A DNA stretch of 64,000 nucleotides from Rhizobium lusitanum (GTDB taxonomy: Bacteria; Pseudomonadota; Alphaproteobacteria; Rhizobiales; Rhizobiaceae): NCBI RefSeq assembly GCF_014189535.1, contig NZ_CP050307.1:496001-560000 (forward strand), in the 5' to 3' direction. Below are positions 20,929 to 41,267 of this stretch, piece by piece. Each line of letters opens with the position of its first letter. Positions within the stretch are counted from its first letter, which is position 1. The notes under the pieces are model-generated. The model was not told the origin of the DNA, searched no databases, and saw only the letters and a list, made by a program, of their open reading frames with translations. The position numbers were made by a program, and so were the translations under genes.

Positions 20929-21614
20929 CCATCGACACACGCGACGACATCAAGCTCTCCAACGCCCAGATCGCCTGGCGTGCGGCTCAGGATATCGAAG
21001 ACGGCGCCTATGTGAATCTCGGCATCGGCTTTCCGGAAATGGTCGCCCGCTACCAGCCTCCGGGACGCCAGGCGATCTTCCACACGGAAAACGGCATCCT
21101 GGATTTCGGCGAGCCGCCGGCGGAGGGTGAAGAAGATTGGGACCTGATTAACGCCGGCAAGAAGGCCGTTACGCTGAAGCCCGGCGCTGCCTTCTTCCAC
21201 CACGCCGATAGCTTTGCCATGGTGCGCGGTGGCCATCTGGATGTGGCGATCCTCGGGGCCTATCAGGTGGCGCAAAATGGTGACCTCGCCAACTGGCGCG
21301 TCGGCTCCCGGGGGGTGCCGGCCGTTGGTGGCGCCATGGATCTGGTGCACGGCGCCAAGCAGGTTTTCGTCATCACCGAACATGTGACGAAGGACGGAAA
21401 GCCGAAACTGGTCGACGCCTGTACCTTCCCGCTCACCGGCGTTGGCTGCATCACCCGCGTCTATACGAGCCATGCCGTCATCGATATCGCCGATGGAGGT
21501 TTCGTCGTGCGTGAAAAGCTAGCTGCCATGACCATGGATGAGCTGCAGGCGATGACCGGCGCTCCGCTCCATGCCAACGGCTCCGTTGCTGACCTTGTCG
21601 TGCCGGCGCTCTAG
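20925..21614 (+). CDS. pcaJ: 3-oxoadipate CoA-transferase, subunit B
   Basis: 229 aa from the ATG at 20925, four bases inside pcaI. NLGIGFPEMVARY is followed by the catalytic glutamate Glu55 in HTENGILDFG, and later GGAMDLVHGAKQ and CTFPLTGVGCI, all typical of the beta chain. It partners PcaI. One oddity: the usual small residue after IGI is replaced by FPEM, seen in some alphaproteobacterial forms. pcaF follows after 10 bases. Confidence 0.93.
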   Translation: MTIDTRDDIKLSNAQIAWRAAQDIEDGAYVNLGIGFPEMVARYQPPGRQAIFHTENGILDFGEPPAEGEEDWDLINAGKKAVTLKPGAAFFHHADSFAMVRGGHLDVAILGAYQVAQNGDLANWRVGSRGVPAVGGAMDLVHGAKQVFVITEHVTKDGKPKLVDACTFPLTGVGCITRVYTSHAVIDIADGGFVVREKLAAMTMDELQAMTGAPLHANGSVADLVVPAL

Positions 21615-21624
21615 GGAGAAGACC

Positions 21625-22830
21625 ATGACCGAAGCCTTCATCTGTGACTATATCCGCACGCCCATCGGCCGCTTCGGCGGTTCGCTTTCCTCCGTGCGCG
21701 CCGACGATCTCGGTGCGGTGCCCTTGAAGGCACTCATCGAGCGCAACGGTTCCGTCGATTGGGAAGCCGTCGACGACGTGATCTATGGCTGCGCCAACCA
21801 GGCAGGCGAGGACAACCGCAACGTCGCGCGCATGTCGCTTCTGCTCGCCGGCTTTCCCATTTCCGTTTCGGGCACGACAATCAACCGTCTTTGCGGCTCC
21901 GGCATGGATGCCGTCATCACCGTTGCGCGCGCCATCCGCGCGGGCGAAGCCGAACTGATGATCGCCGGCGGTGTCGAGAGCATGTCGCGTGCACCCTTCG
22001 TTATTCCCAAGGCCGAGAGCGCCTTTTCGCGCAACGCCGAGATCTACGACACCACCATCGGCTGGCGTTTCATCAATCCTCTGATGAAGAAGCAATATGG
22101 CGTCGATTCCATGCCGGAGACCGGCGAGAACGTTGCCGAGGACTATAAGGTCAGCCGCGAGGATCAGGACGCCTTCGCCGTTCGCTCGCAGGCCAAGGCC
22201 GCCGCCGCCCAGGAGAATGGCCGCCTCGCCAAGGAGATTACACCGGTCACGATCCCACAGCGCCAGGGCGATGCCATCGTGGTTGGCAAGGACGAGCATC
22301 CGCGCGCCACAACAGTCGAAACATTGGCGAAGCTGGGCACGCCCTTCAAGAAGGAAGGGGGCACTGTGACTGCCGGTAACGCTTCGGGCGTCAATGATGG
22401 TGCCGCTGCGCTGATCATCGCTTCGGAAGCGGCGGTGAAGAAATATGGTCTGACGCCGATCGCCCGCATCCTCGGCGGCGCTGCCGCCGGCGTGCCGCCG
22501 CGTGTGATGGGCATCGGCCCGGTGCCGGCGTCGCGCAAGCTGATGGCCCGTCTCGGTATGCGCCAGGAACAGTTCGACGTCATCGAGCTCAACGAAGCCT
22601 TTGCCTCGCAGGGGCTGGCCGTTTTGCGCGAACTCGGCATTGCCGGCGACGATGCCCGCGTCAACCGCAACGGCGGCGCCATCGCGCTCGGCCATCCGCT
22701 CGGCATGTCAGGCGCCCGTATCACCGGCACGGCGGCGCTGGAGCTGAAGGAAACCGGCGGGCGCTACTCGCTGTCGACCATGTGCATCGGCGTCGGGCAG
22801 GGCATCGCCATCGCGCTCGAGCGGGTCTGA
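21625..22830 (+). CDS. pcaF: 3-oxoadipyl-CoA thiolase
   Basis: 401 aa. Thiolase catalytic residues are visible: nucleophile Cys90 in [12 protein letters not shown], the [17 protein letters not shown] histidine motif, and the C-terminal cysteine in [10 protein letters not shown]. It splits beta-ketoadipyl-CoA with CoA to succinyl-CoA and acetyl-CoA, the last step of the pathway. Last gene of pcaIJF; the putative prophage end begins only 28 bases after its stop, so its native downstream sequence is probably displaced. Confidence 0.94.
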
Positions 22831-22858
22831 CCCCTTCACGATGAATTGACGGCGGTCC

Positions 22859-22906
22859 TGTAGCGCGCAAAATCGCGTGGCACCGCGCGCAAGATCAGAT
22901 GGCAAC
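22859..22906. repeat. Putative prophage right terminus with two abutting 22-bp transposase-binding repeats
   Basis: The plus strand reads TGTA at 22859-22862, then two adjoining 22-mers at 22863-22884 and 22885-22906 that agree at 17 of 22 positions (both begin GCGCGCAA and contain TGGCA). Mu's right end likewise starts TG and carries abutting sites of about 22 bp a few bases in. The five preceding bases, GGTCC at 22854-22858, would be the target duplication. Inferred from geometry; the other end is outside the window. Confidence 0.6.
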
Positions 22907-22976
22907 AGAAATCTATTATTTGAGAGGCCTTTAAACGTCCAAAAAAGTGGCGTAATCCAGTTGCCCGCCTGCTTCC

Positions 22977-24620
22977 CTATTTTGGCGAAAACACGACTCT
23001 CGTCATTTGCGGCGATGCATCCACAATGCCACCGGCCCCAGCCTTCATTTCAACGCGAATACGGCTTCCGATAGCAACAGGCAGAGCATCGGTTTCAGCG
23101 CTCACGCTGACCTCGTCTCCAAACGTGGAGCCGAACGCGACTTCCTTGAAGCCGCCACCGCCGTCGACCATGATCCTCAGGTCACAGCCGCCTTGCTGCG
23201 AGGCCTTGAGATGAACGCGGCTCTCGATATCGACCTCGGTCACGCCGGCCGGGACAGTGAATTCTCCTGGCTGATCGGACGGTTTGAAATCGATCCCTAA
23301 ACCTGCGGCGTTCTGATCAGGCACGAACGGCACGACTTGCCACTTGCCGGCGCCGGCTTGTGTCTGTCCGTCAACAGAGCCGATCGTGGAAAGCTCGGTG
23401 TCGAAAGCCTCCCAGGTGATCCGCTTGTGCAAAGGGCTATTGGTGAAGCGATACATCTCCGACACGGTCGATTTGCCCTTTAAGTCCCTCTCGGGTCGAT
23501 TCTTCGAGATCACGATATCTTCGGCACCACTGACCCCGTTATCGGCGATATCGAGAAAGATCGTCCTTTCGCTTGCGAGATTGTCTGAAATATTGCTGTT
23601 GCGGATCGAACCCACCGCCTTGATGGCGGTCTTTGTGACCTTCGATCTATCCATGCCGCTGTAGAACTTGTTGCGTGCGATGGTCGCAGCCGGGCACGTT
23701 CCTATGAAGATGTCGGTTTGATCAGACCCGGCCTTGACGTCCTTGCGCCCGTAGAGAAGGTTATCGACCACGTTGACTTGACTGTAACCCTCGACGTGAA
23801 TTGCTTCGTAGCAGGCGTTGATATGCGTCAGCGCCACCTCGATATGAGGAAGCCCCACGGGCGCGGCCTGAAAATACACACCATGACCGACCCGAACGAA
23901 CGAGCCGCCGTGAAGTCTGAAGCCTTCCAGACTGGTAGCGCCATCTGACCGGCATGCGTAAGCCAGATTGTACATGTAAGTGTCGGTCATCGTGACATCG
24001 TTTGCCGCAGCGAGCACCAATCCCTCGCCCTGCGGATCGGTATCGGCAAGCCCGTTGAACCAGCATCCGATGATCTGGCCGGTGCCTTTGTTCCGGATCT
24101 CAAGCCCGCGAGCAAAGAAATTCTTATCACCTAACGAATTGGAGCCAAACCCGACATCGTCGATGGCGAAGCCTTTCCCGACCGCAGCCTTTGCCCATTC
24201 TAGCTTGAGCGCCGTCCCCTGGTTCTCCCGCTGCGGCAGGAACGATATCCCCTTAAAGGAATACTGAGAGCCAGGCGCGCCGTTTAGGGAGATCCCAACG
24301 CCGTCACAGCGAATCGCGGTGGAGGCCATCCCTTCGCCAGATATGGCGACACGCACGACGTCCTGAGAGGAAACGTCGATTGGCGCATCGAGATCGTGCG
24401 GCGCTCCTCCCGGCAATTGGATGTTGATACCTGATCCAGCCGCTTCTCTAACGGCGTTTTCAAGCTTGGCCCTGAATGACCCCCCCTGAAAATCCAGCAC
24501 CGACCAGCTTGTTTTCTGGTCGGTGCGAACGGAAGGGGCGACCAGTGAATTATCTTGGCCAAAGGCCCTCGATGCCACCACCGAAAGAGCCAAGCCCTGA
24601 ATGAACATTCTCCGCTTCAT
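22977..24620 (-). CDS. Exported right-handed beta-helix protein, prophage cargo
   Basis: 547 aa from the ATG at 24620 with AGGA upstream. The N-terminus KRRMFIQGLALSVVASRAFG has the paired arginines, hydrophobic core and cleavage site of a Tat signal peptide. Residues about 35-400 show the irregular short-strand repeats of pectate-lyase-like helices (LEIRNKGTGQIIGCWFNGL, SNISDNLASERTIF); the last ~130 form a separate beta domain. It could bind or cut a polysaccharide; no catalytic site is identifiable. A Tat signal is odd for a virion protein, so this is likely a lysogen-expressed cargo gene. Confidence 0.65.
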   Translation of the reverse strand: MKRRMFIQGLALSVVASRAFGQDNSLVAPSVRTDQKTSWSVLDFQGGSFRAKLENAVREAAGSGINIQLPGGAPHDLDAPIDVSSQDVVRVAISGEGMASTAIRCDGVGISLNGAPGSQYSFKGISFLPQRENQGTALKLEWAKAAVGKGFAIDDVGFGSNSLGDKNFFARGLEIRNKGTGQIIGCWFNGLADTDPQGEGLVLAAANDVTMTDTYMYNLAYACRSDGATSLEGFRLHGGSFVRVGHGVYFQAAPVGLPHIEVALTHINACYEAIHVEGYSQVNVVDNLLYGRKDVKAGSDQTDIFIGTCPAATIARNKFYSGMDRSKVTKTAIKAVGSIRNSNISDNLASERTIFLDIADNGVSGAEDIVISKNRPERDLKGKSTVSEMYRFTNSPLHKRITWEAFDTELSTIGSVDGQTQAGAGKWQVVPFVPDQNAAGLGIDFKPSDQPGEFTVPAGVTEVDIESRVHLKASQQGGCDLRIMVDGGGGFKEVAFGSTFGDEVSVSAETDALPVAIGSRIRVEMKAGAGGIVDASPQMTRVVFSPK

Positions 24621-24694
24621 CGCCACTATCCTTATGCAGCCGAACTAAGATCAGCTTACGAAGCTAGGGCGACTTATCGGAAATTGTATGTCCG

Positions 24695-25537
24695 TCACTG
24701 CCTGAAGTTGATTTGCGTGGTGGCAAGGCTCCGATTGAACGCCCGCTCTACTTCCAAGGCCTCTATAGCAAGCGCCGCCCGCTCCTGCGATGCTACCTGC
24801 TCATCGATCTTTCCTTTGCGCATCACGAAATAGAATTCGGATCCGTTGTTGGTATGGAACCGCTCTTCGACCAGATCAATCAGGCCGAGCGCCCCCAAAT
24901 CGAACATGATGAGCCTGAAAGATTCCGGGGTGAAGCACCAAGCGTGGGTATCGACATATTTCGTTGAATTGAGAGCGTTCGAAACGAGCTTCTTAGCCTC
25001 GGCAAAGTTATGGATATGATCGATTGGAGCTTCTTCCCGAGGCCCCCAAAGGTTTCTCTTCCCGCGAGACGATGCATTGATCTTCGTATCAAAGAGCGCG
25101 CCGACGTGTCTCGTTCGGCCGAGAAGATGAGCGTCGATGACGTTGCCGGTGGACGTCAGTGGGCGAAGTGCGTCGAATACATGCCGCTTGTCTGGCACGA
25201 TCAGATAGAGGCTCGACCCGTCATGCATCAGACGAGAGCAATCCTTGAGGAACCCGATCATATCCGGAGTGTGCTCAATCAGATGGGCACCAACGATGCA
25301 ATCGAAGGTTCCGTGAACATCGGCCAGAGTGCTGCCGAGAATATCGACGTCCTCGATGAGGTTGATGTTCGCCGAGTGGCCTTTGTACTTCTCTCGAAGC
25401 TGCTCCTTGGTGAGGTGGTCAAAAACGACCGTCTTGTATCCGTCCGCCTTGGGCACGATGGGGTTATAGGATGGCCCAATCTCCAAGCAAACCTTGTCCT
25501 TCTGGATCGCGTTTCTGATTGTATCTCGATAGCCCAC
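24695..25537 (-). CDS. Class I SAM-dependent methyltransferase, prophage cargo
   Basis: 280 aa. Motif I is VCLEIGPSYNPIVPKADGY near residues 16-34, followed by FDCIVGAHLIEHTPD, the motif IV region of the Methyltransf_11/23 group, and SSLYLIVPDKRHVFD. Such proteins often act on sugars or small molecules; there is no DNA-methylase target motif. It is set off from the tail operon by a strong hairpin, and more AT-rich than the head and tail genes, which suggests an independently acquired cargo gene. It could modify surface glycans to change phage reception, but that is speculation. Confidence 0.7.
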   Translation of the reverse strand: MGYRDTIRNAIQKDKVCLEIGPSYNPIVPKADGYKTVVFDHLTKEQLREKYKGHSANINLIEDVDILGSTLADVHGTFDCIVGAHLIEHTPDMIGFLKDCSRLMHDGSSLYLIVPDKRHVFDALRPLTSTGNVIDAHLLGRTRHVGALFDTKINASSRGKRNLWGPREEAPIDHIHNFAEAKKLVSNALNSTKYVDTHAWCFTPESFRLIMFDLGALGLIDLVEERFHTNNGSEFYFVMRKGKIDEQVASQERAALAIEALEVERAFNRSLATTQINFRQ

Positions 25538-25557
25538 TTATGTTTCCACCCGTTAAT

Positions 25558-25591
25558 AAAGATTGCCACAATATGCGTTGCGGCAATCTTT
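25558..25591 (-). terminator. Hairpin between tail operon and cargo genes
   Basis: Perfect 10-bp stem (AAAGATTGCC at 25558-25567 with its complement at 25582-25591), extendable by three more pairs across one mismatch. On the minus strand it is followed by TTTATT. It would end late leftward transcription after the 62-aa gene and so isolate the methyltransferase gene, a common arrangement for cargo genes. Confidence 0.6.
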
Positions 25592-25677
25592 GAGGCAAGG
25601 CGACTTTTGGGCAATCGTATCTAAAGTTGCACGCCGGCTCCCCGAAGCCATGCAGCTATCGAGGACTAAGGCCGCGA

Positions 25678-25866
25678 CTAAGATGAAGCTTCCAAGGCAG
25701 CGACAGCATTCCGGAGTTCAGCCAAAGCGCCAGTCATGATGCCATAGGCTGCTGTCGGATCATCGTTATTGATGAATTCAGTCATACCGGGATAGGCAAG
25801 AATTGCGTTTGCGGCTTCCAACAATTTCTCTTCCGGCGTCGTTTCGGTTGTCTGTTCAGTTGTCAT
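25678..25866 (-). CDS. Small phage protein after the tail spike gene, unknown function
   Basis: 62 aa, acidic, threonine/glutamate-rich start (MTTEQTTETTPEEKLLEAA) then a helical stretch ending LAELRNAVAALEASS. The start is well supported by TAGGAGAG seven bases upstream. It lies 39 bases after the tail-spike stop and is the last gene of the tail operon. The position is where many phages keep a spike-assembly chaperone, but the sequence itself shows no known family. Confidence 0.6.
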   Translation of the reverse strand: MTTEQTTETTPEEKLLEAANAILAYPGMTEFINNDDPTAAYGIMTGALAELRNAVAALEASS

Positions 25867-25905
25867 AGATTGCTCTCCTACTACGGATGCCCAAGCTGGG
25901 GCGGG

Positions 25906-28791
25906 TTAGCCTGCGAAGTCTATCTCGGCCTTCCAGACGACAAGGGACGATGCCGCAAGCGCTGCTGGGAAGGTCACTATCAGGTTTGTTGCATCGGCGG
26001 TGATACGCGGCGCGGCTGCTTCTAAAGTATTGCCCCTCCCATCCCACCAAACCGGTATTTTATAAAGGCCGTGGGGGATAGTGACGGACGTCGCACCTGC
26101 TGTGACGCTGACTTGTCCTCTCGCCTTTTCGACAAGACCAGTGACATTACTTGCGCGGTTTGGTTGACCATTAATCTTCGCAGAAGATCCAGAAACAGCG
26201 ACACTACCGCCGGTCAGGCGCGTCCCGCTAGAAGCAGCGAAATCGTATAGATAGTCTACATTTGCCGAGGATGCCTTGAAGCCAACGAAGTCGAGTACCC
26301 CTGTCGTGTTGACGTCGATCAGAGAAACACCAGCGGCACCGTCAGTGTTACCGTCTCGAGCTCCACCAAGAAACGTGGAGTCGGATGTCCCCGATCCGAG
26401 GATGATTGCCTGGGCCTTACTGGACCGGATATCGCAGGTTATAAACCCACCTGAAACAGTTGACGTCGTCTCCAACCCAACCTTGTCGGCGTAACTGTCA
26501 TAGTTGATGTTAGCCTTCCTGGTGTTGTTCAGATACAAGCCGTGCTCGATAGCTGTGCGGCTGTGAAGCGCGAGGATAGTGACGCCCTGTCCACCGACAG
26601 TACCTATGTTTTCGAGAACCACATTTTTTGTGCCGCCGACCGCGAAGACTTCAGTAATGTGAATGTTCTGAGAAGCGCGCGCAACCGCAGTATCTGTCGT
26701 GACCGTACTGCTCTTGATTGTTAGAAGGTTTGGCGCACCGACGCCCATCTCACTTCCAAGCTTCAAGGTCATGCCGTGGTAACTAATGACGCCACGAAGT
26801 TCCAATCCCATGGACCCACGGTCGATTGTTTCGACGCTGACGTGAGTTACATCTGATGTGTTTTCGATGACCGCTCCGTATCTGCTCCAAGCACGATACT
26901 CATTAGAAATTGTCCCGAAAGCATTTGTTCCGGTATCGACATAATAGATCTGTCCTACCCCCTGAGCCGAACGGGTCGCCTCCGGATCTGTAATTGCCGC
27001 AGTAGAGTTGCAATATGCTCTGAATGAAATCCATTGGGTTTTAAATCCATCTGGACCGAGATTGCCAGAGTCGCTGGTAATGCGAACACATCTACCTAAA
27101 TAGTTGGCGCCATATTTAAGATCGATAACGGACCCATAGGCGTTCACAAAAGCAAAAGATTCATCTGCTCCGATCGGATTTGCTACGGAATAATCCGCAG
27201 TCTGACCACCGCCGCTAACGCGACAAGTAAACTGGCCGCCGCGAGCGTTTCGGGTGGTGATTGCTCTGCCGATCCCGGCATCCGGCTTGATAGAGCCTTC
27301 GAAGACAACGGAACCGACAGACGGAATGCCGCTCAGATCACAGAGGATACCGGACGCCAAGCGATAGCTTCGGTTCCCCGGGAAGACGAGCGTCAGGTTC
27401 GAAGCGCTCTTGAACCAGTTGAAAGCGACCAGCGCGGTCGCGGCATCATCCGTCGTGCCGTCGCCCTTCACGCCGAATACTAGCGCCGACAAACGAGAGC
27501 CTACAAGGCCCCACCGCTTGCTGCCGCTATTGGATGGGTGCTCTCCAGGCTGCGCCGCCTCGATGGCTGCCATACGCCGGCATTGAACCGCACCGCCATC
27601 TCCAGCCTCATAATAGCCAAGCAGCTCGACGACATCAGCAGATTCGGGGACGTTGGCAGCGGCCAAATCCGCAACGGACTTGAACCGGACAGCGTCGGGC
27701 GCCGTGACCTGGCTCTCCAGCGTATCCAAGCGTGAATCGGCGTCGATGGCTTCCTGTGCCGCGATTCGGGCCTCAAGAGCGTCAACATCCGGAGCATAGG
27801 TCGTCGCGTGAGTGATATCCTCCCACCTGATAATCTCGATGTCAGTGACCGGCGTCACGCCATAAGTTTGGACGTAGGGCCGCACGTAACGCGCATCGGT
27901 CGGCGCGACGAGATCTATATCGTCCCCCGCCGATCGGGAGACTGTTGCGGAGACCAGCGTTCTACCCGAGCCAACCGAAAGTGAGGTCAGATCCTGGATT
28001 ATCGTCAGTGGTACGGCGCTTCGATTTGCGCCCTGATCGTACCAGGCGAGCGCGCAACGTACCGCATCATTCGATGGATCGGGGGAATTGACCCGGCGCT
28101 GCACGACGAATTCGACGGCATAGACCTTTGCCGGTTCGAGGGAATAGAGCGTGCGTGTACCGATAATTGCGGGACCGGCGACCCGAAGAACGCGGCCGTT
28201 CTCGTCATACTTCTGCTCGCCTGTCGCAAGAAGCGGCAGCAATGCCGGCACACCGCCGTTGAGCGTATCGACGAAGTGCTGCGGCATATCGCCCGGACGT
28301 GCGTTGATGAGATCGTCCGCCGTGCCGATGAGGGCATAGGCGGCCTTCGAAACCGGCTTATCAGCGTCCCGGGTGTTGTCGATATTGGCGATGAGCGCCG
28401 CGAGATTGCTGACCGACACCCGCAGGGATGTCAGATCCGAATAGTCCCCCGTTCGCGTCCAGCCGGCCGGCGAGGCGACGTAGGTGAATGTGCCGCTGTT
28501 CTTGACGGTCGAGCTGGTCACGGGATCGGTATGCGATCCCGTGTCGCTCTCCGGCACTGTTCCGCGCTGCAACGCTGTGCCGACGATGACCGAAAGTTCA
28601 GTCCATGTTCTGGCATTCTTGCTGCCCAGCGTGGCCCCTTCGATCATGTCGGCAATCGCGCCGGTGCCGGCAAGCTGAGTGGCCAGATCAGCGATCGCCT
28701 GCACGGTCGTAACGCCGTCACGATTGACGAGGACCTCATCAGAGATCGGAACGCCGGTAAGATTGGTTGTTCTGACGCCTGCAATGGTCAT
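25906..28791 (-). CDS. Tail spike protein with pectate-lyase-like beta-helix
   Basis: 961 aa. Residues 1-60 resemble a virion-attachment N-terminus (LVNRDGVTTVQAIADLATQL). About 340-440 is a linker with VTAPDAVRFKSVADLAAANV, then LVFGVKGDGTTDDAATAL, the hallmark opening of phage pectate-lyase-3 beta-helices, followed by some 450 residues of short strand repeats. The C-terminal ~60 residues form a receptor-tip-like beta domain. It probably binds or cleaves the host's capsular or lipopolysaccharide. It starts nine bases after the J-like gene. Confidence 0.8.
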   Translation of the reverse strand: MTIAGVRTTNLTGVPISDEVLVNRDGVTTVQAIADLATQLAGTGAIADMIEGATLGSKNARTWTELSVIVGTALQRGTVPESDTGSHTDPVTSSTVKNSGTFTYVASPAGWTRTGDYSDLTSLRVSVSNLAALIANIDNTRDADKPVSKAAYALIGTADDLINARPGDMPQHFVDTLNGGVPALLPLLATGEQKYDENGRVLRVAGPAIIGTRTLYSLEPAKVYAVEFVVQRRVNSPDPSNDAVRCALAWYDQGANRSAVPLTIIQDLTSLSVGSGRTLVSATVSRSAGDDIDLVAPTDARYVRPYVQTYGVTPVTDIEIIRWEDITHATTYAPDVDALEARIAAQEAIDADSRLDTLESQVTAPDAVRFKSVADLAAANVPESADVVELLGYYEAGDGGAVQCRRMAAIEAAQPGEHPSNSGSKRWGLVGSRLSALVFGVKGDGTTDDAATALVAFNWFKSASNLTLVFPGNRSYRLASGILCDLSGIPSVGSVVFEGSIKPDAGIGRAITTRNARGGQFTCRVSGGGQTADYSVANPIGADESFAFVNAYGSVIDLKYGANYLGRCVRITSDSGNLGPDGFKTQWISFRAYCNSTAAITDPEATRSAQGVGQIYYVDTGTNAFGTISNEYRAWSRYGAVIENTSDVTHVSVETIDRGSMGLELRGVISYHGMTLKLGSEMGVGAPNLLTIKSSTVTTDTAVARASQNIHITEVFAVGGTKNVVLENIGTVGGQGVTILALHSRTAIEHGLYLNNTRKANINYDSYADKVGLETTSTVSGGFITCDIRSSKAQAIILGSGTSDSTFLGGARDGNTDGAAGVSLIDVNTTGVLDFVGFKASSANVDYLYDFAASSGTRLTGGSVAVSGSSAKINGQPNRASNVTGLVEKARGQVSVTAGATSVTIPHGLYKIPVWWDGRGNTLEAAAPRITADATNLIVTFPAALAASSLVVWKAEIDFAG

Positions 28792-28800
28792 TTATTGCCC

Positions 28801-31800
28801 CTATCGAATAGTGACGGTGAACGGGCCAGCCAATGGGCCGGCGACGCCGTCTGAGTTTTGAGGTTCAAGCCAGATGTAATGAATGCCGGCAGCCAGGCAG
28901 GTCGCCGTCTCCTCGAAGATCATGGCATTGTCGACCGAGCCGACGAACGCCGAAGCGGCGGCCAGAGCGAGCGTGTTGTTGCCGGCAACGGCCTGGATGC
29001 GATCGGAAAAGTTGCCGTTCGCCGACCGCGCTGTGCCGCCTTGCGTCGTGCCCCCAGTCAGCTGCGGCGTCAGTGTGCCCGCCGTGACACCGGAGAGCGT
29101 GAAGGCAATGCGGTAGTAGATGCCGACCGTCGTGGCGCGGGCCTGCGATAGGACGCTGGCTGTGCCCGACGCGTGGGTGGCGAGACCGGAAGCAATCGTC
29201 CAGCCGGTTCCCTTCGTCCAGCCGCTATCGGTGTCGAAGCCGCCATTCGTGGCAAGGTTCGAACGCGTCGTGTCGCCGATCGGCGTGCTGTAGCCCCGCG
29301 ACGGCTGGACGGCGACAGGATCGCCGGCCGCGTCTGTGGCGCGGTTGATGGTCGATGACATCGACCGGTAGATCTGCACCTGGACGGTGGCAGCGTCGGC
29401 CGTGGTCGAGAACATGACAGAGCCACCGCCCAGCAGTGCGCCGACCGAGATCATGCTGCTGTCGAGAGCGAGTGGTAGAGCGGCGTCCTGGCCGCCAATC
29501 GTGACGTTGACGACGAGCGAGAAATCCCCGACGGCGCCGGCAGCGTTGAGCGCGGCTGCGCGGATCTGCACCACTTGCCCAGACGAGTAGCCTGCGATCG
29601 AGCAACCGCCATTGGCAGCCGGGAAATCGACGCTGTTCCAGGTCGTGGCGCCGTTGAGGCGGTGCTGGACACGGAACGTCACGCTAGTGACGGCCCCGCT
29701 ACCGGGCGTGAGATTGACCTCCAGGCCGCCGACGACGTCGGTGCCGGATATGCCGGTTCTGATCGAGACGATCACCGGCGCTGGCGGCAGGCCGGTATCA
29801 TTGCCGATTTCGTCGCCAACGCGGCCGGACCAGGGCGGCGGCACTTCGGCGTCGGTCAGCTCGTCGATGATCGGAGATGCATCGACCATCGTGTAAATGC
29901 TCGCCATGTCTTGGCCGGCTTCGACACGGGTGACGAACACCGGGAAGCTCTCCGTCAGAGCTTCCCCGAAATGAATAAGGTCACCAACCTGAGGAATGGC
30001 ACCGTCGCCGGAGAGCTGCACCACCGTGGACGAGCCCGCAGCCGTCCGGAGCTGGCGAAGGACGCTGTTGCCGATCGTGTCTTCATCGTCGGCAAAGGTG
30101 CGAAAGCGGATAGCGTAGTCGTGGCCCGAGATCATTATGATCTCGTCCTCCAGTTCGATGAGCCGGCCGGTGATCGATTTCACACGGCTGGCGACCTGTG
30201 TGCGCTCCAGCACGTCAAAGCTGGCCATGACGAGATCGCCGCGCGTGGCGACCCGAGCTGGGCCATCCAGAGTGGCGGTGTGAACGTCCGGCCGATATTG
30301 CGCCTCGTACATCCGCCGCCGCGCTTCGCGCCAGATCTCGTCGGGATTGGTCTTTCCCGGTAGTTCGAGCTGCTCGGTCAGCAAGATCTCGCCCGAGTAA
30401 CCCGGCCATGGAACAAGCCGCTCAGCTTGCTTGTAGTCGTTGGTCTCGTCGTAGAACTGGACGCGGAAACCGTGCGGCGCTTCGGTATAGGTCCGGACCG
30501 ACTGAAAGCCCCAGCTATTGCGCGGGTTGATGTGGTCGATCACCAGCTCTTGCGGCCGGTCGATGACGACGCCCCAGCGAAGGCCGTCGTGACGTGGCGT
30601 CGCGCGGCCTGCGGCTGCGATCTCGGGGAGGATATCGCGCAGCTTGCTCTCGTCTTCCAGGACTTTGTTGTACTCAAGCCCCTTCGACGTGCAGAACACA
30701 TGCCAGTCTTGGAGAACCGCCAGATCGATTTCCGAATCGGCGGCCGGTTTCGGATTGGCGGCCGACTGGAGAGCGCGACGGTAGAGCGAAGCGGGATTTC
30801 TGGTTTCTCGGACGATCCAGGACTGCGAGGCACTATCCCAATCCAGGCAGCGCCGGCTGCAGAGCGCATTGAAATTATCGAGCGCACCATTGAGCTGATA
30901 GGTCGCCTTTACGCGCACGGCCACCAATGCCAGGGGAGCCGGGAAGTTCAGGGGATATTCCGGCCGCAGAGTCTGCAGCGCCACCCATGTCGTGCGGCCT
31001 TGCGTCTGCTGGCTGGTGAATTCGTCGGTCAGGCGATTGACCTCGATGTCATACCGGGCACGCGTCGCAAAGTTCCAGGTATATTGCCGATAGAAGCCCT
31101 CGAACTTCTTGGCGGAAATGTCGAGTGTGACGACTTCGGTCCAGTCCTCTGTGCCGGTTGGCCGCTGGCGGATGCGGATCTGCACGGTGACCGACTTCTG
31201 CTTACCCTTGTCATCGACCTTGCCGAGACCGGCCGGAAGGCCGATGATTATGGAGGCTCCGGATGCATCCTCGCCGGTCGTGCGAATGATAGGGCTGTCG
31301 ATCCCAGGACCGTCGATCTCGTCGCCCTGGTCGTCGCGATGCTCCGGACGTGCCAATTCCGCGCCGACGCTCTCCTCGAAGATCTGTGTCGGATAGAGCG
31401 TCACCGGTTCGTCGGTCGGCAATCCCTCGCGAACTTCCATCTCGATTTCGTCGTAGTCGCCAGTCGAGGTCTCGCCGATCCGGTATTCGGAAAAGGTCAC
31501 GGGACCGTAGCCGAAGTTGAAGATCGCGCGGATGTATTGCAGGTCGCCAACGATCTCGGTGTAGGAGCCAGCAGCGAAAGGCGGCGCGTAGCGGACCTTG
31601 CCCATCAGATCAGGCACGACCCCGTCAGGGTCCATTTTGTTCTGCCATCCAGTGATCTGGTAGCTCGTATTCTTGTCGTTGCTGGTCGATGTCGGCGGGA
31701 TCAGCGCATTGATGAGCAGGTTGCCGAGCACAGTGACGCCGAGCCCGACCAAGCCCGAGGCAAGGCCTTGGGAAATGCCGAGCGTGCTGGCGAGAGCCGG

Positions 31801-32136
31801 CGCCCATACCTGCCCGAGGGCAATGGCCGCGATCGACACAACGACAGAGAGGATCGACCGTAGAGCGCCGTTGCCGGGTATGATCCGAATGACAACATGG
31901 ACGCCAGGATGTGGCCGGACACGAGCCCAATCCTCGCGCGAAATGATCACGCTGCCACGATCGGATACGAGCGCAACACGGGCATGCGCGAGGTCCTGAC
32001 CCGTTGCTCGTGGCAACGCGACGCTGACGATCTCCGCTACCGTCAAGCCGGCAGGCAGCTCGATATTGACACGGGCCGAGCCGGGATCGAGGAGCGGCGC
32101 TGCGAGAACGGGTATGATGCCCATTTGAACGGTCAT
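28801..32136 (-). CDS. J-like tail tip / host specificity protein
   Basis: 1111 aa from the ATG at 32136 behind GAGGGCGGC. Near the N-terminus, residues about 95-150 are hydrophobic helices (ILSVVVSIAAIALG, SGLVGLGVTVLGNLLI) as in lambda-J-type central tail proteins, followed by the PTSTSNDKNTSYQITG start of the hub domain, the region KVRYAPPFAAGSYTEIVG, and fibronectin-like beta domains from about 770. The C-terminal ~200 residues are a carbohydrate-binding-like beta domain. Overlaps the NlpC/P60 gene by ATGA. Supports a siphovirus-type tail. Confidence 0.85.
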   Translation of the reverse strand: MTVQMGIIPVLAAPLLDPGSARVNIELPAGLTVAEIVSVALPRATGQDLAHARVALVSDRGSVIISREDWARVRPHPGVHVVIRIIPGNGALRSILSVVVSIAAIALGQVWAPALASTLGISQGLASGLVGLGVTVLGNLLINALIPPTSTSNDKNTSYQITGWQNKMDPDGVVPDLMGKVRYAPPFAAGSYTEIVGDLQYIRAIFNFGYGPVTFSEYRIGETSTGDYDEIEMEVREGLPTDEPVTLYPTQIFEESVGAELARPEHRDDQGDEIDGPGIDSPIIRTTGEDASGASIIIGLPAGLGKVDDKGKQKSVTVQIRIRQRPTGTEDWTEVVTLDISAKKFEGFYRQYTWNFATRARYDIEVNRLTDEFTSQQTQGRTTWVALQTLRPEYPLNFPAPLALVAVRVKATYQLNGALDNFNALCSRRCLDWDSASQSWIVRETRNPASLYRRALQSAANPKPAADSEIDLAVLQDWHVFCTSKGLEYNKVLEDESKLRDILPEIAAAGRATPRHDGLRWGVVIDRPQELVIDHINPRNSWGFQSVRTYTEAPHGFRVQFYDETNDYKQAERLVPWPGYSGEILLTEQLELPGKTNPDEIWREARRRMYEAQYRPDVHTATLDGPARVATRGDLVMASFDVLERTQVASRVKSITGRLIELEDEIIMISGHDYAIRFRTFADDEDTIGNSVLRQLRTAAGSSTVVQLSGDGAIPQVGDLIHFGEALTESFPVFVTRVEAGQDMASIYTMVDASPIIDELTDAEVPPPWSGRVGDEIGNDTGLPPAPVIVSIRTGISGTDVVGGLEVNLTPGSGAVTSVTFRVQHRLNGATTWNSVDFPAANGGCSIAGYSSGQVVQIRAAALNAAGAVGDFSLVVNVTIGGQDAALPLALDSSMISVGALLGGGSVMFSTTADAATVQVQIYRSMSSTINRATDAAGDPVAVQPSRGYSTPIGDTTRSNLATNGGFDTDSGWTKGTGWTIASGLATHASGTASVLSQARATTVGIYYRIAFTLSGVTAGTLTPQLTGGTTQGGTARSANGNFSDRIQAVAGNNTLALAAASAFVGSVDNAMIFEETATCLAAGIHYIWLEPQNSDGVAGPLAGPFTVTIR

Positions 32137-32558
32137 TGAGCCGCCCTCAAATGCATCTCGAAATGCCGATAAATACCCGTCAGGCGATGCGCCCAACGGC
32201 CGGAACTGTAATGCTCCAGGCGAGAATGATCGTCGGCCGAGGTGTGCAGCATCAGGCCGGGCGAAACGACGATTCCAACATGCGCCTCCATATGGCCACG
32301 CCTGAAAACAACAATGTCAAAGGTTGCCGCCTGGACTGTTCCCACCCAGATTTCGCTACCAGCAGCCGAGCCGATCAATGCATCCAACTCGCTCCGCTCT
32401 TCCTGCGAAGTGTACTGCTCGATATAGCTTGGCAGCTCGATACCAAGGATTTCGGCGAAAACGAGCTTTGCCAAGCCCCAGCAGTCGACGCCGGCTCGAT
32501 CGCGGCCGAACGCGACATAGGGGATGCCAACGAACTCATTGCTCCAGCCCGCGTTCAT
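32133..32558 (-). CDS. NlpC/P60-type tail peptidase
   Basis: 141 aa. Catalytic cysteine Cys26 in AGVDCWGLAKLVF and histidine in AHVGIVVSPGLMLHT, spaced as in NlpC/P60 endopeptidases. In lambda-like tails this protein (the K position) lies just before J and helps the tail tip cross peptidoglycan. Translationally coupled on both sides by 4-base overlaps. Confidence 0.85.
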   Translation of the reverse strand: MNAGWSNEFVGIPYVAFGRDRAGVDCWGLAKLVFAEILGIELPSYIEQYTSQEERSELDALIGSAAGSEIWVGTVQAATFDIVVFRRGHMEAHVGIVVSPGLMLHTSADDHSRLEHYSSGRWAHRLTGIYRHFEMHLRAAQ

Positions 32559-33079
32559 CGGTGCAATCCTGGGAAGCGGTTCTTGGTCATGCGGCCGGCC
32601 GGCACATATTCCTCCTCGACGTTTTCGCGACTGAAGCTGAGGGTGACCTCGCCGGCATTGATCGTGGCCGAGGTGATCTTCAGGTTCTGATATTCAGCCT
32701 CGACCAGCGATGGAGAGGAGGCGAGAACGACGGCGATATGGATGGTCGCGAGATCCGAGAACGAACGCAGTAGCTTGGCGATATCGTTGTCGACATTCTC
32801 CAGGACGATATTGCCCTCGGCCGGCGCATCGTCGAGATCCGACGGCAGCACGGTCGAGGCAAGCACGAACAGGTATGGATCCGTGACCGTGTTCGCATCC
32901 AGCCAGGTCGAGCGGGTTCCATACATCAGCGGCTCATTCTGCAGGCGCTCGGTCGGGTCCGTCGACAGCCGCACCGGACTATCGAGCATCGAATGCTCGA
33001 TGCAGAAGAGAGCGACGTAGATCTCCGACGTGTTTTGAGCGTCCTGGGCAAGACGGGCATTGAGGGAAACACGTCTCAT
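32555..33079 (-). CDS. Minor tail protein (DUF1833-like)
   Basis: 174 aa from the ATG at 33079 (MRRVSLNARLAQDAQ), overlapping the upstream stop by ATGA. Contains ALFCIEHSMLDSPVRLSTD near residue 24, the beta-rich pattern of DUF1833 tail proteins that occupy the place of lambda L. Probably part of the distal tail ring. No enzyme motif is visible. Confidence 0.7.
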   Translation of the reverse strand: MRRVSLNARLAQDAQNTSEIYVALFCIEHSMLDSPVRLSTDPTERLQNEPLMYGTRSTWLDANTVTDPYLFVLASTVLPSDLDDAPAEGNIVLENVDNDIAKLLRSFSDLATIHIAVVLASSPSLVEAEYQNLKITSATINAGEVTLSFSRENVEEEYVPAGRMTKNRFPGLHR

Positions 33080-33498
33080 GGCATCACCGAAACGGAGAAG
33101 GTTATCCGAAACTCGACACCCACGACGGCCTCGGCCGGCATGGTGTCGCCGAAGAGGCAGAGCCACTGCGCAGCCAGCAGGAGCGGTTGATCGTCGTTGG
33201 TCAAAAGCGGCTGTCCGTCGGCAGTAAATAGGCCCCAACCATCGGTCGTGGGATCAGGCATGTAGAATGGCAGAGAGCCCTCGGACGTCGTCGTTTCACG
33301 AAACTTATCGAATACGGCCTTGCCGTCCCGGTCGACCATGATTGACAGGGTGACGGCCTGAGCGACAGATGAATAGCGGCGACGGTAGCTCGGCGGTCCG
33401 GCGTCGTTCTGCCTCTTCAGGCGAGCGTCTTGCGGCGATTTCTGCCAGCTATCGCGGTCCGGCCGAGGAAGCGTCGTGGGCCAGGTGGGGATGGTCAT
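33076..33498 (-). CDS. Minor tail protein (M-position)
   Basis: 140 aa, beginning MTIPTWPTTLPRPDRDSW, a start common to small distal tail proteins of Mu-like siphoviruses. PSYRRRYSSVAQAVTLSIMVD and the C-terminal VGVEFRITFSVSV suggest a beta sandwich. It sits between tape measure and the DUF1833-like gene, where lambda has M. Overlaps both neighbours by 4 bases. Confidence 0.65.
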   Translation of the reverse strand: MTIPTWPTTLPRPDRDSWQKSPQDARLKRQNDAGPPSYRRRYSSVAQAVTLSIMVDRDGKAVFDKFRETTTSEGSLPFYMPDPTTDGWGLFTADGQPLLTNDDQPLLLAAQWLCLFGDTMPAEAVVGVEFRITFSVSVMP

Positions 33499-36400
33499 CG
33501 GCGAACCCCCACGGTTTTTACGCCATATTGCTGCGCCAGGGCGCGCTGTGCTCCGCCACCCTTGGTCGTCATGGCGTCTCCGGCCTGATCGGCGATGATG
33601 AAGCGGATCTGGCGACCACCGCGCTGATCGGTTGACTGTTCAGTCCTGACCGAAGCTGACGAGTAGTTATGTGTCTCGATCTTGACGTCGCCGCCGCCAG
33701 CCGACGCGTTGCCGCCGTAGTTGCGCGGCACGGCCTGGTTGACACTGAGGGTCACCGGAACCGAGCGGCCGTCCGGAAGCGGGATCGCAGCCTCCGGACC
33801 AGCCTCGGCGAAGATCGAGGGCTGATTGGCAACGCCGCCGGCTGCGAACAGACCGCCGTTGCCGCTGGCGACAGCGGCGCGTGCCTGGGCTGAGCCCGCA
33901 AGGATCGAACTCGAGCTTGGTGTGAAGAGGTTTGATATCCACCCGAACAGTCCGCCGCTGCTGCTTCCGGACGCGGAAGGTGCTGCTGGAAATAGACCGG
34001 TCAGCGATTGGCCGATCTGACCAAGGCCGGTTCCGAATCCCACGAGGTTCTGCGTTGTGGCGGCGGTCGTGTCACCGAGCTTTCCAAGTGCGGTATTGAA
34101 CTTGGCAACATAGCCGCTACCGGTCGTGCCAAGAATATCCGCGGCGCCTGCGCCCTGCGACTGCGGCCGGCCGGTAAACCAGACGCTGGCCGCGTCGTTC
34201 GCGTTACCGTACTTCGCGAGCGACTTGCCAAAGAAGCGATTGAAGACGCTGTCCTGCGCCTTCGGATCCGCCAGGAATTGCGACGGAGAGAGCGACTGGC
34301 CCAGGGTCTCCTTGGTCCAGCTCGGGATATTAGCGCCCATGACCTGATAGGCGCCGTAAGCCCTGTCCCCGCTCTTCGTCAGGGGACCAAGGGCATTGTA
34401 GCCGCCGCTGCCGGCGCTCTCGACCGAACGGATCGCAGCAGCATATTTGCCGATATCGCCGACAGCCATATTGCTGTTGGCAGCGGCAGCACCACCGCCA
34501 AGCAGGCTGCTGACGCCACCGCTGACGCCGCCGTTGACCATGACCGTGCCGGCTGTGACCGTCATCGCCGCGACGGACTTACCGCCCATTGCGGAAGCGA
34601 CCATCGAGGCTGGATCATCCTTCTTACCGCCGAATAGACGGCTGGCTATCCCACCGATCCCACCGACGTCGGAAATCGTGCCGTAGTCAGTCCCGAGTAG
34701 AGAGTTCTTCAGCGGATTGGAGACGGCAAGGGTGAGCGCGGTTTTCTGGATATCCTTCGAGATGCTGTCGAGCGCATCGCCGAACTTGCCATTGGCCAGA
34801 CCTTCGACTGCGCTGTCGATTGCACCTTCCGACGTCTTCTGCACCTCGCCCCAGGCATCGGATTGCTTCTTGATCTGGGTATTGAGGTCGGCGACGGCGG
34901 AAGCCTTGGCGCGGATCTTCTGCGCCTGGTCGCTATCGCTGTTGATGCCGAGCGTCCGGATTTTCTGCTCGGCGTCCAGGAGTGCGTTCGCCTTTGCCTG
35001 GACGGTCGAGTTTTCCCCGATCAACCGCTGCTGCAGCCGGAGCTTTTCGAGCTGCTCATCCTGCGATCGGAGATAGTCGTTGGCGGACGCTTCTTTCTCG
35101 GCGGCGGCAAGGCCGGCATAGCCCGACCGGAGATCCGCCAATACCTTGTTCAGACGAACCTTAGCATCGCCCTCGGCCGTGGCGGCGGCGATGATCAGCG
35201 GCCGGAGCTGCAGTTCCTCCTGGAGGGCGCGCTGCGCATCATCCGTCGTGATCGTGCCAGCGGCAACCTGTGCATTCAACCGATTGCGGATATCGATCTC
35301 AGCCCGCATATCGGACGCCTGGGCGGCGTTGCTGCCAATCGTCTCCTCGATCACCTGGTTGCGGGCGCGCTCTGCTTGCGCGGCGGCCTCGCCGGCATTC
35401 ACCTCCTGGAGGGTGAGCTGCAGCCGCTCGCGGCGCTGGGTGAGATCGGCACGGGTGACCGGATTACGCTCATTCTGGATCTGGATGTCCAGCCGATCGA
35501 TCTGGGTAAGCGTCGCCTGCTTGTTGATCAGCCCATCGAGAGCCGCGCGCTTTGCCACCAATGCGTCGTTGATCTGCCGTTGCTGATCGAGGCTCAGACC
35601 CGGTGCGCTCGCACCCTTTTCCAGCGCGGCAATCTGATCCTGCAACTGCTGTGTCTGAAGCCGGTTAGAATTGGCAGGCGACTGTGCGGCGATGCCGGTG
35701 GCAGTCGCGCCGGCTGCTCGCTTCTCGGCATCGAGCCGATCCTGTTCCGCTTTCCTATTACGCTCCTGGAGTTCGGCTGAACGCCTGTCAAAATCCTTTT
35801 GCGCCGCATCGACGTCCGCTTGCGCTGGGTTGTAGTCCGGCCGACCGGTAAAAGCCCGACCAATCCGTGTGGCCAGGCTATTCGCTGTCCGATCGCGCGT
35901 CCGCTTTTCTTCTTCTAGCCTCTTGCGAGACTCCTCAACTTGTTCATCCAGTGACGGCCCAGAGAATTGCCGGTCGGTTACCCGGCCGAGCCAGTCGTAG
36001 GCATTGCTGGCACCGGAAGCCACGGTATTCCATGCTCTGCCGAGCGCTGTCGTTGCCTCGGTGGCATGGGCAAGACGACCAGGGAGGGCATCGAGCAGGA
36101 CCGATTGTGCTTCGGAAAGCTTGTTCTGGTTGGCGAGCCGCGTCGCATAGTCGGCCGTCGCACCATCGATCAGCCCGTATTGACGATAAAGCACCTGCGC
36201 GGCTTTGGCCGGATCGGAGAACATCTCGGCAAGCGCAGGGCCGGCCTGATCGGCCGTGATTCCGATCGTCGCCGCGAAATCCGATGAATTGGCGATCAGC
36301 CGCTCAAAATTCTCCGAACCGATCTTGCCGGTCGAAAGGAACTGCGCCTCCATGGAGCGGGCGGACTTGACGGTGATATTCGCCGTAGCAGCACCAGCCT

Positions 36401-37328
36401 GGGCAGCGGCTTCCATGGAACCGGCGCTGCCGGCGACGGCGCGGCCGAGGCCAGCCGCAGCGGTCTCAACGGGCTTGATCGAGTTGAGGTAGCTGTTCCA
36501 GGCAGCACCCGCTACCGCCACGGCGCCGATCGTCCCGCCGATCGCCACGTTGGTGACCGTGAACACACTGCCGAGCAGCTTGACGGCATTGCTGACGCCA
36601 CCGACCGCCTGCACGGCCTGCGGACCTTGCTGCAGAAACACCTGGAGCGGCGGCATGCCCAGCGCCAGCGACTGAACGGTATCATTCGTCTGGAAGGCGA
36701 GCTGCTTCAGCTCATTCGACGATAGCTTGATCGCATTGTTATGGCCTAGAACGGCCGAGGCGGCGCGCGTGGCCGATTCCGCCTGCTGATCATAGCTCTT
36801 CTTCGCCTTCGCCAGCGCGACGGTGCTGTCATCGGCGCTGATGACGTTCGCCTTCTGCAGCTCCTGAATATCGGCAAGCGCCTTTTCATAATCGCGCTGT
36901 GCGGCATAGAGCGGCAGATAGGCGACCTTCAGCCTTTCGAGATCGGCGGGCGTCTGCTCTCCAGGTCCCGACTGCGGTGACCTTGGCTGACCACCTGGCT
37001 GCCGTGGCGGCGTGCTGCCACCGGACGGGCTGGATGGGGCTGCCGGGTTCGGCCTGGTGGTCGACGGCGCCGATGGCGTCGGCTTGCTGGCCTGATCGCG
37101 GACTTCCTTTTCGGCTTGTGCCTGGTCGCGCAGCGCATCGGCCGTCTTCTTGGCGGCTGCAGCTTCCCGATCCAGCGCGGCCGAGTGCTTGTCGAGCGCC
37201 TGGGAGGCCTGATCGGCTGCGGTCGCGGCCTGCTCCAGGCCCTCTTTCGTCTCGCGCGTCGCTTCCTTGGCGGACTTGTTGTCGCCGGTAATGAGGAGCG
37301 AAAATCTGAGCTGGTTGGGTGTCGTCAT
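33495..37328 (-). CDS. Tail tape measure protein with transglycosylase-like domain
   Basis: 1277 aa, the longest gene of the tail operon. Residues 1-95 are coiled coil with alanine/glutamine repeats; about 90-125 is a proline/serine-rich linker; about 200-310 has hydrophobic helices and the LGMPPLQVFLQQGPQAV motif typical of lambda-family tape measures; about 480-900 is long coiled coil. Residues about 960-1090 look like a lytic transglycosylase (YAAAIRSVESAG, DRAYGAYQVMG, FGKSLAKYGN). The C-terminus is typical (AGPEAAIPLPDGR). It sets tail length, and the embedded domain may open the cell wall on injection. Confidence 0.9.
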   Translation of the reverse strand: MTTPNQLRFSLLITGDNKSAKEATRETKEGLEQAATAADQASQALDKHSAALDREAAAAKKTADALRDQAQAEKEVRDQASKPTPSAPSTTRPNPAAPSSPSGGSTPPRQPGGQPRSPQSGPGEQTPADLERLKVAYLPLYAAQRDYEKALADIQELQKANVISADDSTVALAKAKKSYDQQAESATRAASAVLGHNNAIKLSSNELKQLAFQTNDTVQSLALGMPPLQVFLQQGPQAVQAVGGVSNAVKLLGSVFTVTNVAIGGTIGAVAVAGAAWNSYLNSIKPVETAAAGLGRAVAGSAGSMEAAAQAGAATANITVKSARSMEAQFLSTGKIGSENFERLIANSSDFAATIGITADQAGPALAEMFSDPAKAAQVLYRQYGLIDGATADYATRLANQNKLSEAQSVLLDALPGRLAHATEATTALGRAWNTVASGASNAYDWLGRVTDRQFSGPSLDEQVEESRKRLEEEKRTRDRTANSLATRIGRAFTGRPDYNPAQADVDAAQKDFDRRSAELQERNRKAEQDRLDAEKRAAGATATGIAAQSPANSNRLQTQQLQDQIAALEKGASAPGLSLDQQRQINDALVAKRAALDGLINKQATLTQIDRLDIQIQNERNPVTRADLTQRRERLQLTLQEVNAGEAAAQAERARNQVIEETIGSNAAQASDMRAEIDIRNRLNAQVAAGTITTDDAQRALQEELQLRPLIIAAATAEGDAKVRLNKVLADLRSGYAGLAAAEKEASANDYLRSQDEQLEKLRLQQRLIGENSTVQAKANALLDAEQKIRTLGINSDSDQAQKIRAKASAVADLNTQIKKQSDAWGEVQKTSEGAIDSAVEGLANGKFGDALDSISKDIQKTALTLAVSNPLKNSLLGTDYGTISDVGGIGGIASRLFGGKKDDPASMVASAMGGKSVAAMTVTAGTVMVNGGVSGGVSSLLGGGAAAANSNMAVGDIGKYAAAIRSVESAGSGGYNALGPLTKSGDRAYGAYQVMGANIPSWTKETLGQSLSPSQFLADPKAQDSVFNRFFGKSLAKYGNANDAASVWFTGRPQSQGAGAADILGTTGSGYVAKFNTALGKLGDTTAATTQNLVGFGTGLGQIGQSLTGLFPAAPSASGSSSGGLFGWISNLFTPSSSSILAGSAQARAAVASGNGGLFAAGGVANQPSIFAEAGPEAAIPLPDGRSVPVTLSVNQAVPRNYGGNASAGGGDVKIETHNYSSASVRTEQSTDQRGGRQIRFIIADQAGDAMTTKGGGAQRALAQQYGVKTVGVRR

Positions 37329-37699
37329 TCGCCCACCTCGACAAAGGTGGCGATTGCTTCCTTCTCCATCACCTGCAGATCGGCAAAGACGCTGTCAGGG
37401 TAGCCATGGCGGCGCAGGACGATATCGACAGCGACATAGTTGAGGCCGATCCACACGAGGCTGGCAAAGGTGCCCACGACATTCCATTGCGTTCCGCACG
37501 CCATGAACGCCGCCAAGCTTTGCCAGTTGCTCTGGAACACTTCGAAACTACCCTCTTCGCTGATGTCGTCTGTTGCTATTCGGTGACCAAGCTCCGCGAA
37601 CTCTTTCGCGGTCTCCTGGTCGATCGCTACCGGCTGGCGCGGGTCGGACTTGCCGAGGCGGGCAAGAGCCCAGGCCCGCGCCGCCGCCTTCAGTTTCCC
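37325..37699 (-). CDS. T-domain of tail assembly chaperone, reached by -1 frameshift
   Basis: The -1 frame opens exactly at the slippery site in the end of the upstream gene and runs without a stop to 37325, giving about 122 residues: GKLKAAARAWALARLGKSD, then a DUF1799-like domain (WNVVGTFASLVWIGLNYVAVD). Only a GTG start at 37540 would let the last 71 residues be made independently, with no good ribosome site. Joined to the upstream ORF it makes a fusion of about 249 aa, like lambda gpG-T. Overlaps the tape measure start by 4 bases, as T does in lambda. Confidence 0.8.
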   Translation of the reverse strand, partial: GKLKAAARAWALARLGKSDPRQPVAIDQETAKEFAELGHRIATDDISEEGSFEVFQSNWQSLAAFMACGTQWNVVGTFASLVWIGLNYVAVDIVLRRHGYPDSVFADLQVMEKEAIATFVEVGE

Positions 37700-38073: not shown

Positions 38074-38123
38074 GATGGCTTCCTTGGTGCTTTAAAGAGG
38101 GTTTGAAGGGATGAGATCGCCGC

Positions 38124-39056: not shown

Positions 39057-39057
39057 G

Positions 39058-40740: not shown

Positions 40741-40756
40741 GATGGCGTTTCCCCGA

Positions 40757-41176: not shown

Positions 41177-41230
41177 GATGCTTCCTCTCGGTTCTCAAGA
41201 CAGCGCCGCACAAAGGGCGGCGTTGGCTGG

Positions 41231-41267
41231 AAAACCGCCAGCCGGGTGGGAATACACCCGGCTGGCG
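41231..41267 (-). terminator. Intrinsic terminator between capsid and gp35-like genes
   Basis: Perfect 13-bp GC-rich stem (41236-41248 with 41255-41267, arm CGCCAGCCGGGTG), 6-base loop, then TTTT on the minus strand at 41234-41231. It follows the capsid stop by about 20 bases. It is likely a partial terminator or 3' stabiliser that raises capsid message over downstream tail genes. Confidence 0.75.

Follow-up and report, generated by a model that had tools for sequence, protein, structure and literature searches.

Phage Mu has adjoining end sites R1 and R2 at the right, sites L1 and L2 at the left, and a 5-bp duplication of its target. RcapMu (Rhodobacter phage, NC_016165) is a transposable phage of the Alphaproteobacteria whose record annotates attL1, attR1 and an adjoining attR2, and describes these att sites as imperfect repeats potentially tied to transposase recognition. 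Two Sinorhizobium phages, Aussie and StopSmel, are named transposable phages of a rhizobium and contain a match to the Gp27 family of small terminases.

The window studied here, a stretch of 64,000 bases, corresponds to C4:496001–560000 of a 6.94-Mb genome and contains a prophage, E1, whose left end falls 196 bp beyond the window. Positions past 64000 continue the numbering of the window and are marked as extended.

Termini and gene content of E1

It was originally predicted that the sequence following an ORF called pcaF is the right terminus of a prophage built on the plan of the Mu right end. The letters are confirmed in the window: TGTA is followed by two abutting 22-mers alike at 17 of 22 positions. 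The block also stands where it had been placed, 28 bases from the end of ORF 21571–22830 and 70 before ORF 22977–24626. For one comparison at 25% per base an identity of 17/22 has P of about 4e-7, and 22863 is the sole start in the 64,000-base window at which adjoining 22-mers match at 17 or more positions. The features of the two ends are as follows.

21571..22830, plus strand: host ORF called pcaF in the original prediction; the hairpin after it is the insertion site
22854..22858, no strand: GGTCC, one copy of the 5-bp target duplication; the second copy is just outside the left end, extended 64197–64201 (C4:560197–560201)
22859..22862, plus strand: TGTA, right terminus of E1 (TG...CA ends); homology with prophage E2 starts at most 3 bp away and the duplications abut the terminus
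22863..22884, plus strand: R1, first 22-bp end repeat, putative transposase site (position, conservation)
22885..22906, plus strand: R2, second 22-bp end repeat, adjoining R1, putative transposase site (position, conservation)
64054–64075 (extended), minus strand: L2-like site
64166, 64156, 64136 and 64096 (extended starts), minus-strand reading: GGGA units of the left-end array
C4:560174–560196: L1, degenerate, at the left terminus (pattern match)
22859–64196, 41,338 bp (in-window part 22859..64000), no strand: prophage E1, both ends read

The left end had been expected to close with CA and GGTCC and to contain similar sites. Beyond 64000 E1 finishes in GGGTTACA (CA), followed directly by GGTCC, and the similar sites are present as a degenerate L1 at the terminus and an L2-like site further in. 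GGTCC is found outside both ends, consistent with the 5-bp target duplication that had been proposed. It is this finding of GGGTTACA and then GGTCC past 64000 that sets the extent of E1 listed above. The genes recognized in E1 are listed below.

41288..42589, minus strand: Mu gpT-like major head protein
42602..43774, minus strand: Mu I-like head protease
44061..45383, minus strand: Mu F-like minor head protein
45384..46961, minus strand: Mu portal protein
46961..48601, minus strand: large terminase
48903..49520, minus strand: Gp27-type small terminase (PF11985), putative reader of the left-end array
53414..54073, minus strand: GemA
55194..55724, minus strand: Mu Gam-like end-protection protein
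58244..58993, minus strand: MuB/TniB-like AAA ATPase, next to the transposase
59057..61513, minus strand: MuA-type DDE transposase (HTH_Tnp_Mu_1 and Mu-transpos_C over the cut-off, rve just under)
62779..63144, minus strand: Ner-like winged-helix regulator (HTH_35; phrog_769, transcriptional repressor)
63526–63984, minus strand: leftmost ORF of E1, starting about 210 bp from the left end

Tape-measure and lambda-J-type tail fibre genes were found in the part of the tail ORFs that was scanned. E1 combines TG...CA termini and a 5-bp duplication with adjoining R1/R2 sites of about 22 bp and spaced L1/L2 sites. It encodes a DDE transposase with Mu DNA-binding and C-terminal domains, a MuB/TniB-type ATPase alongside it, and Mu-like head and packaging genes. 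E1 is a Mu-type prophage and an ordinary addition to the Mu kind.

Insertion site

The two host flanks of E1, joined, were searched for in 60 genomes of the genus, that of E1 among them; a full-length match is found in eight, none of which is the genome of E1. Seven of these eight were aligned, and in each the flanks run through the junction without an insert. It had been predicted that an unoccupied relative would show the flanks joined directly with one GGTCC; the uninterrupted flanks agree with this, but the single GGTCC is seen only in the joined site of this genome and not in the relatives. There the five duplicated bases vary, being GGGTC and GGGCC in the two closest. The 22-bp repeats, which in such a place had been named as counting against a terminus, are absent from the prophage-free sites of the aligned relatives. 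Among plasmids, the host flank is matched best by Rhizobium replicons, with identities of about 85% or below, so the host is Rhizobium-like.

When the site is empty, the stretch downstream of the pcaF ORF folds into a strong, terminator-like hairpin with a run of T's behind it (−26.2 kcal/mol, z −3.7). GGTCC sits in the 5′ arm of this hairpin, and it is there that E1 is inserted (22831–22858 / extended 64197–64240). At the left junction the hairpin is re-formed from the duplicated GGTCC (the fold of a longer stretch has z −1.0), and at the pcaF-side junction the fold is no better than shuffles (z about 0). Judging from these folds, transcription of pcaF may now continue into the prophage.

Related prophages and the end family

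The same replicon carries a second prophage of this type about 61 kb further on, with near-identical ends and a separate duplication.

125422–166360 (extended; C4:621422–662360), 40,939 bp: prophage E2, related Mu-type, GCTCT on both sides

Homology between E1 and E2 begins and stops within 3 bp of the termini. We also note a copy of the tail-side last gene of the prophage at C4:273057–276361, 87–90% identical over 1.7–1.8 kb; the end pattern TGTANCSCGCAANNNCNNNTGGC has no match in its vicinity in this genome.

Of 397 genomes from the order, 37 contain that pattern, with a reversed-pattern control of 0 in each row; it also occurs in 105 stretches of viral contigs. Right ends read TGTAGC... and left ends TGTAAC..., the remainder of the motif being set by the pattern. 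The 183 ends collected comprise 113 with TGTAG, 60 with TGTAA and 10 others, which were left out; dereplication of ends of at least 150 bp gave 111 right and 52 left ends. The consensus of the E1-type right ends is TGTAGCGCGCAA-(7 bases)-TGGC, repeated at 22 bp. The Mu-like right-end plan that had been proposed from the one locus is borne out by this set, as the R1–R2 spacing is 22 in 96 of the 111 right ends. A third conserved site is not seen in these 111 ends, no column exceeding 0.6 bit at offsets 48 to 119.

The two kinds of end are also told apart by their surroundings. Of 31 left-type ends with 3.5 kb or more of sequence, 28 have a MuA match on their inner side, compared with one of 47 right-type ends, and an L2-like site is present in 52 of 58 left ends. 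In the 52 with such a site the distance from L1 to L2 tends to be close to 103, 117, 127 or 139 bp, in steps of roughly one helical turn.

An exact 5-bp duplication is found in 18 of 22 further left/right pairings, 17 of them computed and one, G181, read by eye, its right end having been collapsed into that of a near-copy. Counting E1 and E2, exact duplications are thus known in 20 elements. Four pairings have no exact duplication: an internal one in L124, one at G359C90 and two in G359C2. The three from G359 lie where partial copies of the right end are stacked. Stacking of such partial copies outside the terminus was noted in three places, L225, L229 and L094.

Two short elements, in G076 (contig C55, 11.3 kb, L257) and G316 (contig C5, 9.5 kb, L258), have both ends and matching duplications and have most phage genes missing. 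We considered them as natural satellites that keep a packaging site and rejected this, as they resemble internally deleted prophages: the MuA match in G076 spans residues 78–246 only, and G316 has gpT and tape-measure genes beside Mu DNA-binding domains.

Chance can produce one pair of similar 22-mers, and the repeats might in principle be a host repeat or a chance similarity, with the prophage ending elsewhere or being of the integrase type. However, the right-end sequence recurs at prophage ends of other genomes with matching duplications and is missing from the site in the aligned prophage-free relatives, and we give this explanation practically no credence. A chance or host-repeat origin of the 22-mers is ruled out by the left end, the empty site and the uniqueness of the pair within the window. 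We therefore retain the 22-mers as the prophage end; from their position and conservation, R1 and R2 are likely to be transposase sites.

The left-end array

In the interval from L1 to L2, left ends carry GGGA(T/A)TA units on one strand in 10-bp steps. At least two GGGA occur in bases 25–110 of 44 of the 52 dereplicated left ends, compared with two of the 111 right ends. GGGA pairs are spaced 10, 20 or 30 in 123 of 172 cases (200 shuffles: mean 2.7, maximum 8), and the reverse motif TCCC forms no pair in bases 25–110 of the left ends. The array is in register with the terminus, 105 of 154 GGGA being at offsets divisible by 10, and its place is fixed, the first GGGA lying at offset 29–41 in 48 of the 52 left ends. 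In E1 and E2 the offsets are 30, 40, 60 and 100.

A weight matrix trained on the E1-family left ends was then applied to whole phage genomes. The score of Mu peaks at its terminus, at 24.5, above all 15 shuffles (maximum 6.9). The best score of the genome is likewise at a terminus in HS6 (17.3; shuffle maximum 6.6), RC1 (15.8; 10.8) and B3 (14.7; 9.4). In D3112, DMS3, SuMu and RcapMu whole-genome scoring gives no array above shuffles. None of the 15 named phages, Mu among them, has a match to a strict three-unit pattern. Four-unit and three-unit scans of viral contigs gave, among the matches listed, many arrays which by eye lie 25–45 bp inside TG termini; the L1 sequences beside them differ strongly from one another, again by eye, and the other matches are plain tandem repeats, which we took as controls. 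Our literature search, with most subscription journals outside its coverage, turned up no paper describing the array.

The leftmost ORF of E1 begins so close to the end that a promoter could be near, and the array could then be an operator for a phage repressor or early promoter, located at the left end by chance. Against this, RC1 and RS1 have the array at the end with the tail genes, a long way from repressor and transposase, the array of B3 is beside Mor and GemA, and the leftmost ORF of E1 has a relative in only 13 of 31 left-end loci. Given the array at the tail-gene end in RC1/RS1 and beside Mor/GemA in B3, an early-operator role is unlikely, and we rate it as quite improbable.

Association of the array with the small terminase

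Among 15 named transposable phages, which include near-twins, PF11985 (Gp27) is found in 11 and PF08822 (DUF1804) in the other four. The DUF1804 gene of RcapMu is directly before the large terminase gene, and in D3112 one opposite-strand gene lies between the two.

The sample of array contigs consisted of the 50 distinct contigs of at least 30 kb among the matches listed in the three- and four-unit scans, with L142 left out; these were sorted by eye into terminal and non-terminal arrays before the PF11985 search. PF11985 is present in 29 of the 31 contigs with a terminal array, compared with one of the 19 with a non-terminal one (Fisher 2e-10). Array contigs L301 and L326 gave no PF11985 match, and the one non-terminal exception with PF11985, L290, looks terminal when re-read. 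DUF1804 was found in none of 38 array contigs by a profile that does find its family in the named phages. Starting from the terminases instead, the strict array is found in seven of 28 Gp27 contigs compared with none of 47 DUF1804 contigs (Fisher 6e-4), and Gp27 in none of those 47, again with a profile that finds its family in the named phages. The strict pattern is absent from 21 Gp27 contigs; of the ten among them that were read, nine have no array by score. In these nine MuA starts 1.9–4.2 kb from the contig end, so the left end has possibly been trimmed.

Two phages were examined from a list of relatives of the E1 Gp27 that names four others as well, and both have the array: POA1180 scores 24.4 (shuffle maximum 11.4) and Mwe-Yong1 25.4 (8.1). 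The ten viral contigs read, together with POA1180 and Mwe-Yong1, include no Gp27 phage that lacks a transposase. In Microcystis phage Mwe-Yong1 (L649) we observed an annotated integrase together with a Mu-type transposase pair, and the array end adjoins head genes.

A significant left-end array is missing in five of the nine named Gp27 phages first scored. In MuM16-1 the array score is highest at the terminus yet does not exceed the shuffles; no array is found by whole-genome score in ThpS-P1 and RhkS_P1; the best sites of Aussie and StopSmel are at the right end, that of Aussie not above shuffles and that of StopSmel at 9.0 (shuffle maximum 8.2). The Gp27 scores of ThpS-P1, RhkS_P1, Aussie and StopSmel are below those of Mu, HS6, RC1 and B3, and that of MuM16-1 is the highest.

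In a MuA tree of 53 rows the array label needs four changes, at least two of which are forced by well-supported branches. For this tree 16 of 55 sources were dropped, having no MuA in the stretch examined; RhkS_P1, ThpS-P1, Aussie and StopSmel were placed in neither class; the array class took in MuM16-1, whose array is not significant, L326, which gave no PF11985 match, and 13 rows (left-end loci L113 to L192 and L155) that lay outside the PF11985 search. L295, L311, L320 and L290 have both array and Gp27 and lie inside the D3112/SuMu transposase clade, the positions of L295 and L311 being well supported and those of L320 and L290 less so.

On the sequences compared, the array is seen to follow the small-terminase family rather than the transposase, with the exception of five named Gp27 phages, L301 and L326. 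The association implicates the packaging module and not Gp27 alone, and the large terminase could be the reader. The AlphaFold model of Gp27 is of middling confidence (mean pLDDT 65.8), and a fold search with it gave no match at E 0.001 among solved structures. The Gp27 terminase profile, run against the sequences of solved structures, gave a single match, to an unrelated enzyme (E 0.24).

A probable packaging role for the array

The array of Mu begins at base 33. Packaging of Mu starts from the left end, with its pac site mapped near bases 32–54, and the coincidence of the two is one reason to read the array as pac. A second is that the packaging module changes with the array. A third lies in published lengths of flanking host DNA: PMC5557969 gives about 50 bp at one side and about 2,000 at the opposite one, and PMC5977238 gives 31–36 bp to the left of Ab30.

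The place of the array between L1 and L2, in fixed phase with the terminus, would also suit a bend or enhancer of transposition bound by HU or a MuA domain and aiding the transpososome. The 10-bp period fits DNA bending, and in Mu HU acts in the L1–L2 spacer. However, the array is lacking in the four named DUF1804 phages, which are known as transposable, and within a single MuA clade it comes and goes with the type of terminase. Bending by itself would not call for units confined to one strand, as those of the array are, and the array stays while L1 changes greatly (by eye). Since the array survives changes of L1 and MuA and is missing in DUF1804 transposable phages, we do not tie it to the transposase, and we regard the bend or enhancer as possible but doubtful. 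An enhancer or regulator site was our initial idea, dropped when the array looked steadier than L1 and tracked the terminase.

In our view, held with good confidence, the 22-mers stand at the right end of a 41.3-kb Mu-type prophage and are likely bound by its transposase, and the left array is likely the packaging start read by Gp27. We also favour, with more reserve, a wider interpretation in which Mu-like phages would share one packaging code: phased GGGA(T/A)TA repeats in register with the terminus and read by Gp27, which would be kept from Mu to the phages of rhizobia while the transposase sites change, and lost with the DUF1804 module.

In the mechanism that we propose, MuA would pair L1/L2 with R1/R2, cut at the TG/CA ends and join these to target DNA whose strands are cut 5 bp apart, so that a copy of GGTCC would be left at each end. 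Once the element has transposed replicatively, an oligomer of Gp27 would hold the phased repeats along one face of the helix; the large terminase would cleave host DNA shortly outside the left end and fill the head toward the right end.

The exact ends of E1 and E2 allow both prophages to be delimited correctly and their insertions to be compared. If the array is pac, one readable DNA motif would give the place and direction of the packaging start in Mu-like phages, mark prophage left ends that may have been trimmed from viral contigs, and link each phage to its type of terminase. The array would, in addition, offer a clean system for the reading of DNA by small-terminase oligomers, because helical register is set by the repeats to the single base.

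Comparison with known systems

E1 shares with Mu (Escherichia phage, NC_000929) a Gp27 small terminase and TG termini, and its genes for head proteins, portal, protease and GemA have matches in families named after Mu. The Mu transposase is related to those in the MuA tree, and the phased GGGA array just inside the left end of Mu, CCGGGAGGACATTGGATTATTCGGGATCTGATGGGATTAG, is as in the E1-type left ends. The right end of Mu is unlike the E1-type right-end consensus, the end-site sequences being different, and E1, unlike Mu, has a lambda-J-type tail fibre gene.

The best named MuA matches to E1 are those of the Rhodobacter and Rhodovulum phages RC1 and RS1 (38% identity over 72%), whose Gp27 small terminase is 50% identical to that of E1. 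They have a tandem right-type end and an array-type end, as E1 does, but the two end types are on opposite sides of the gene map from those of E1. In Aussie and StopSmel the transposase matches cover only 21% and 9% of the E1 query, and the G-rich repeats at their left ends deviate from the array and give no score. RcapMu differs from E1 in having DUF1804 in place of Gp27, and no array. The ends of the prophage are ordinary for a Mu-type phage; the noteworthy part is the conserved phased array that is paired with one terminase family.
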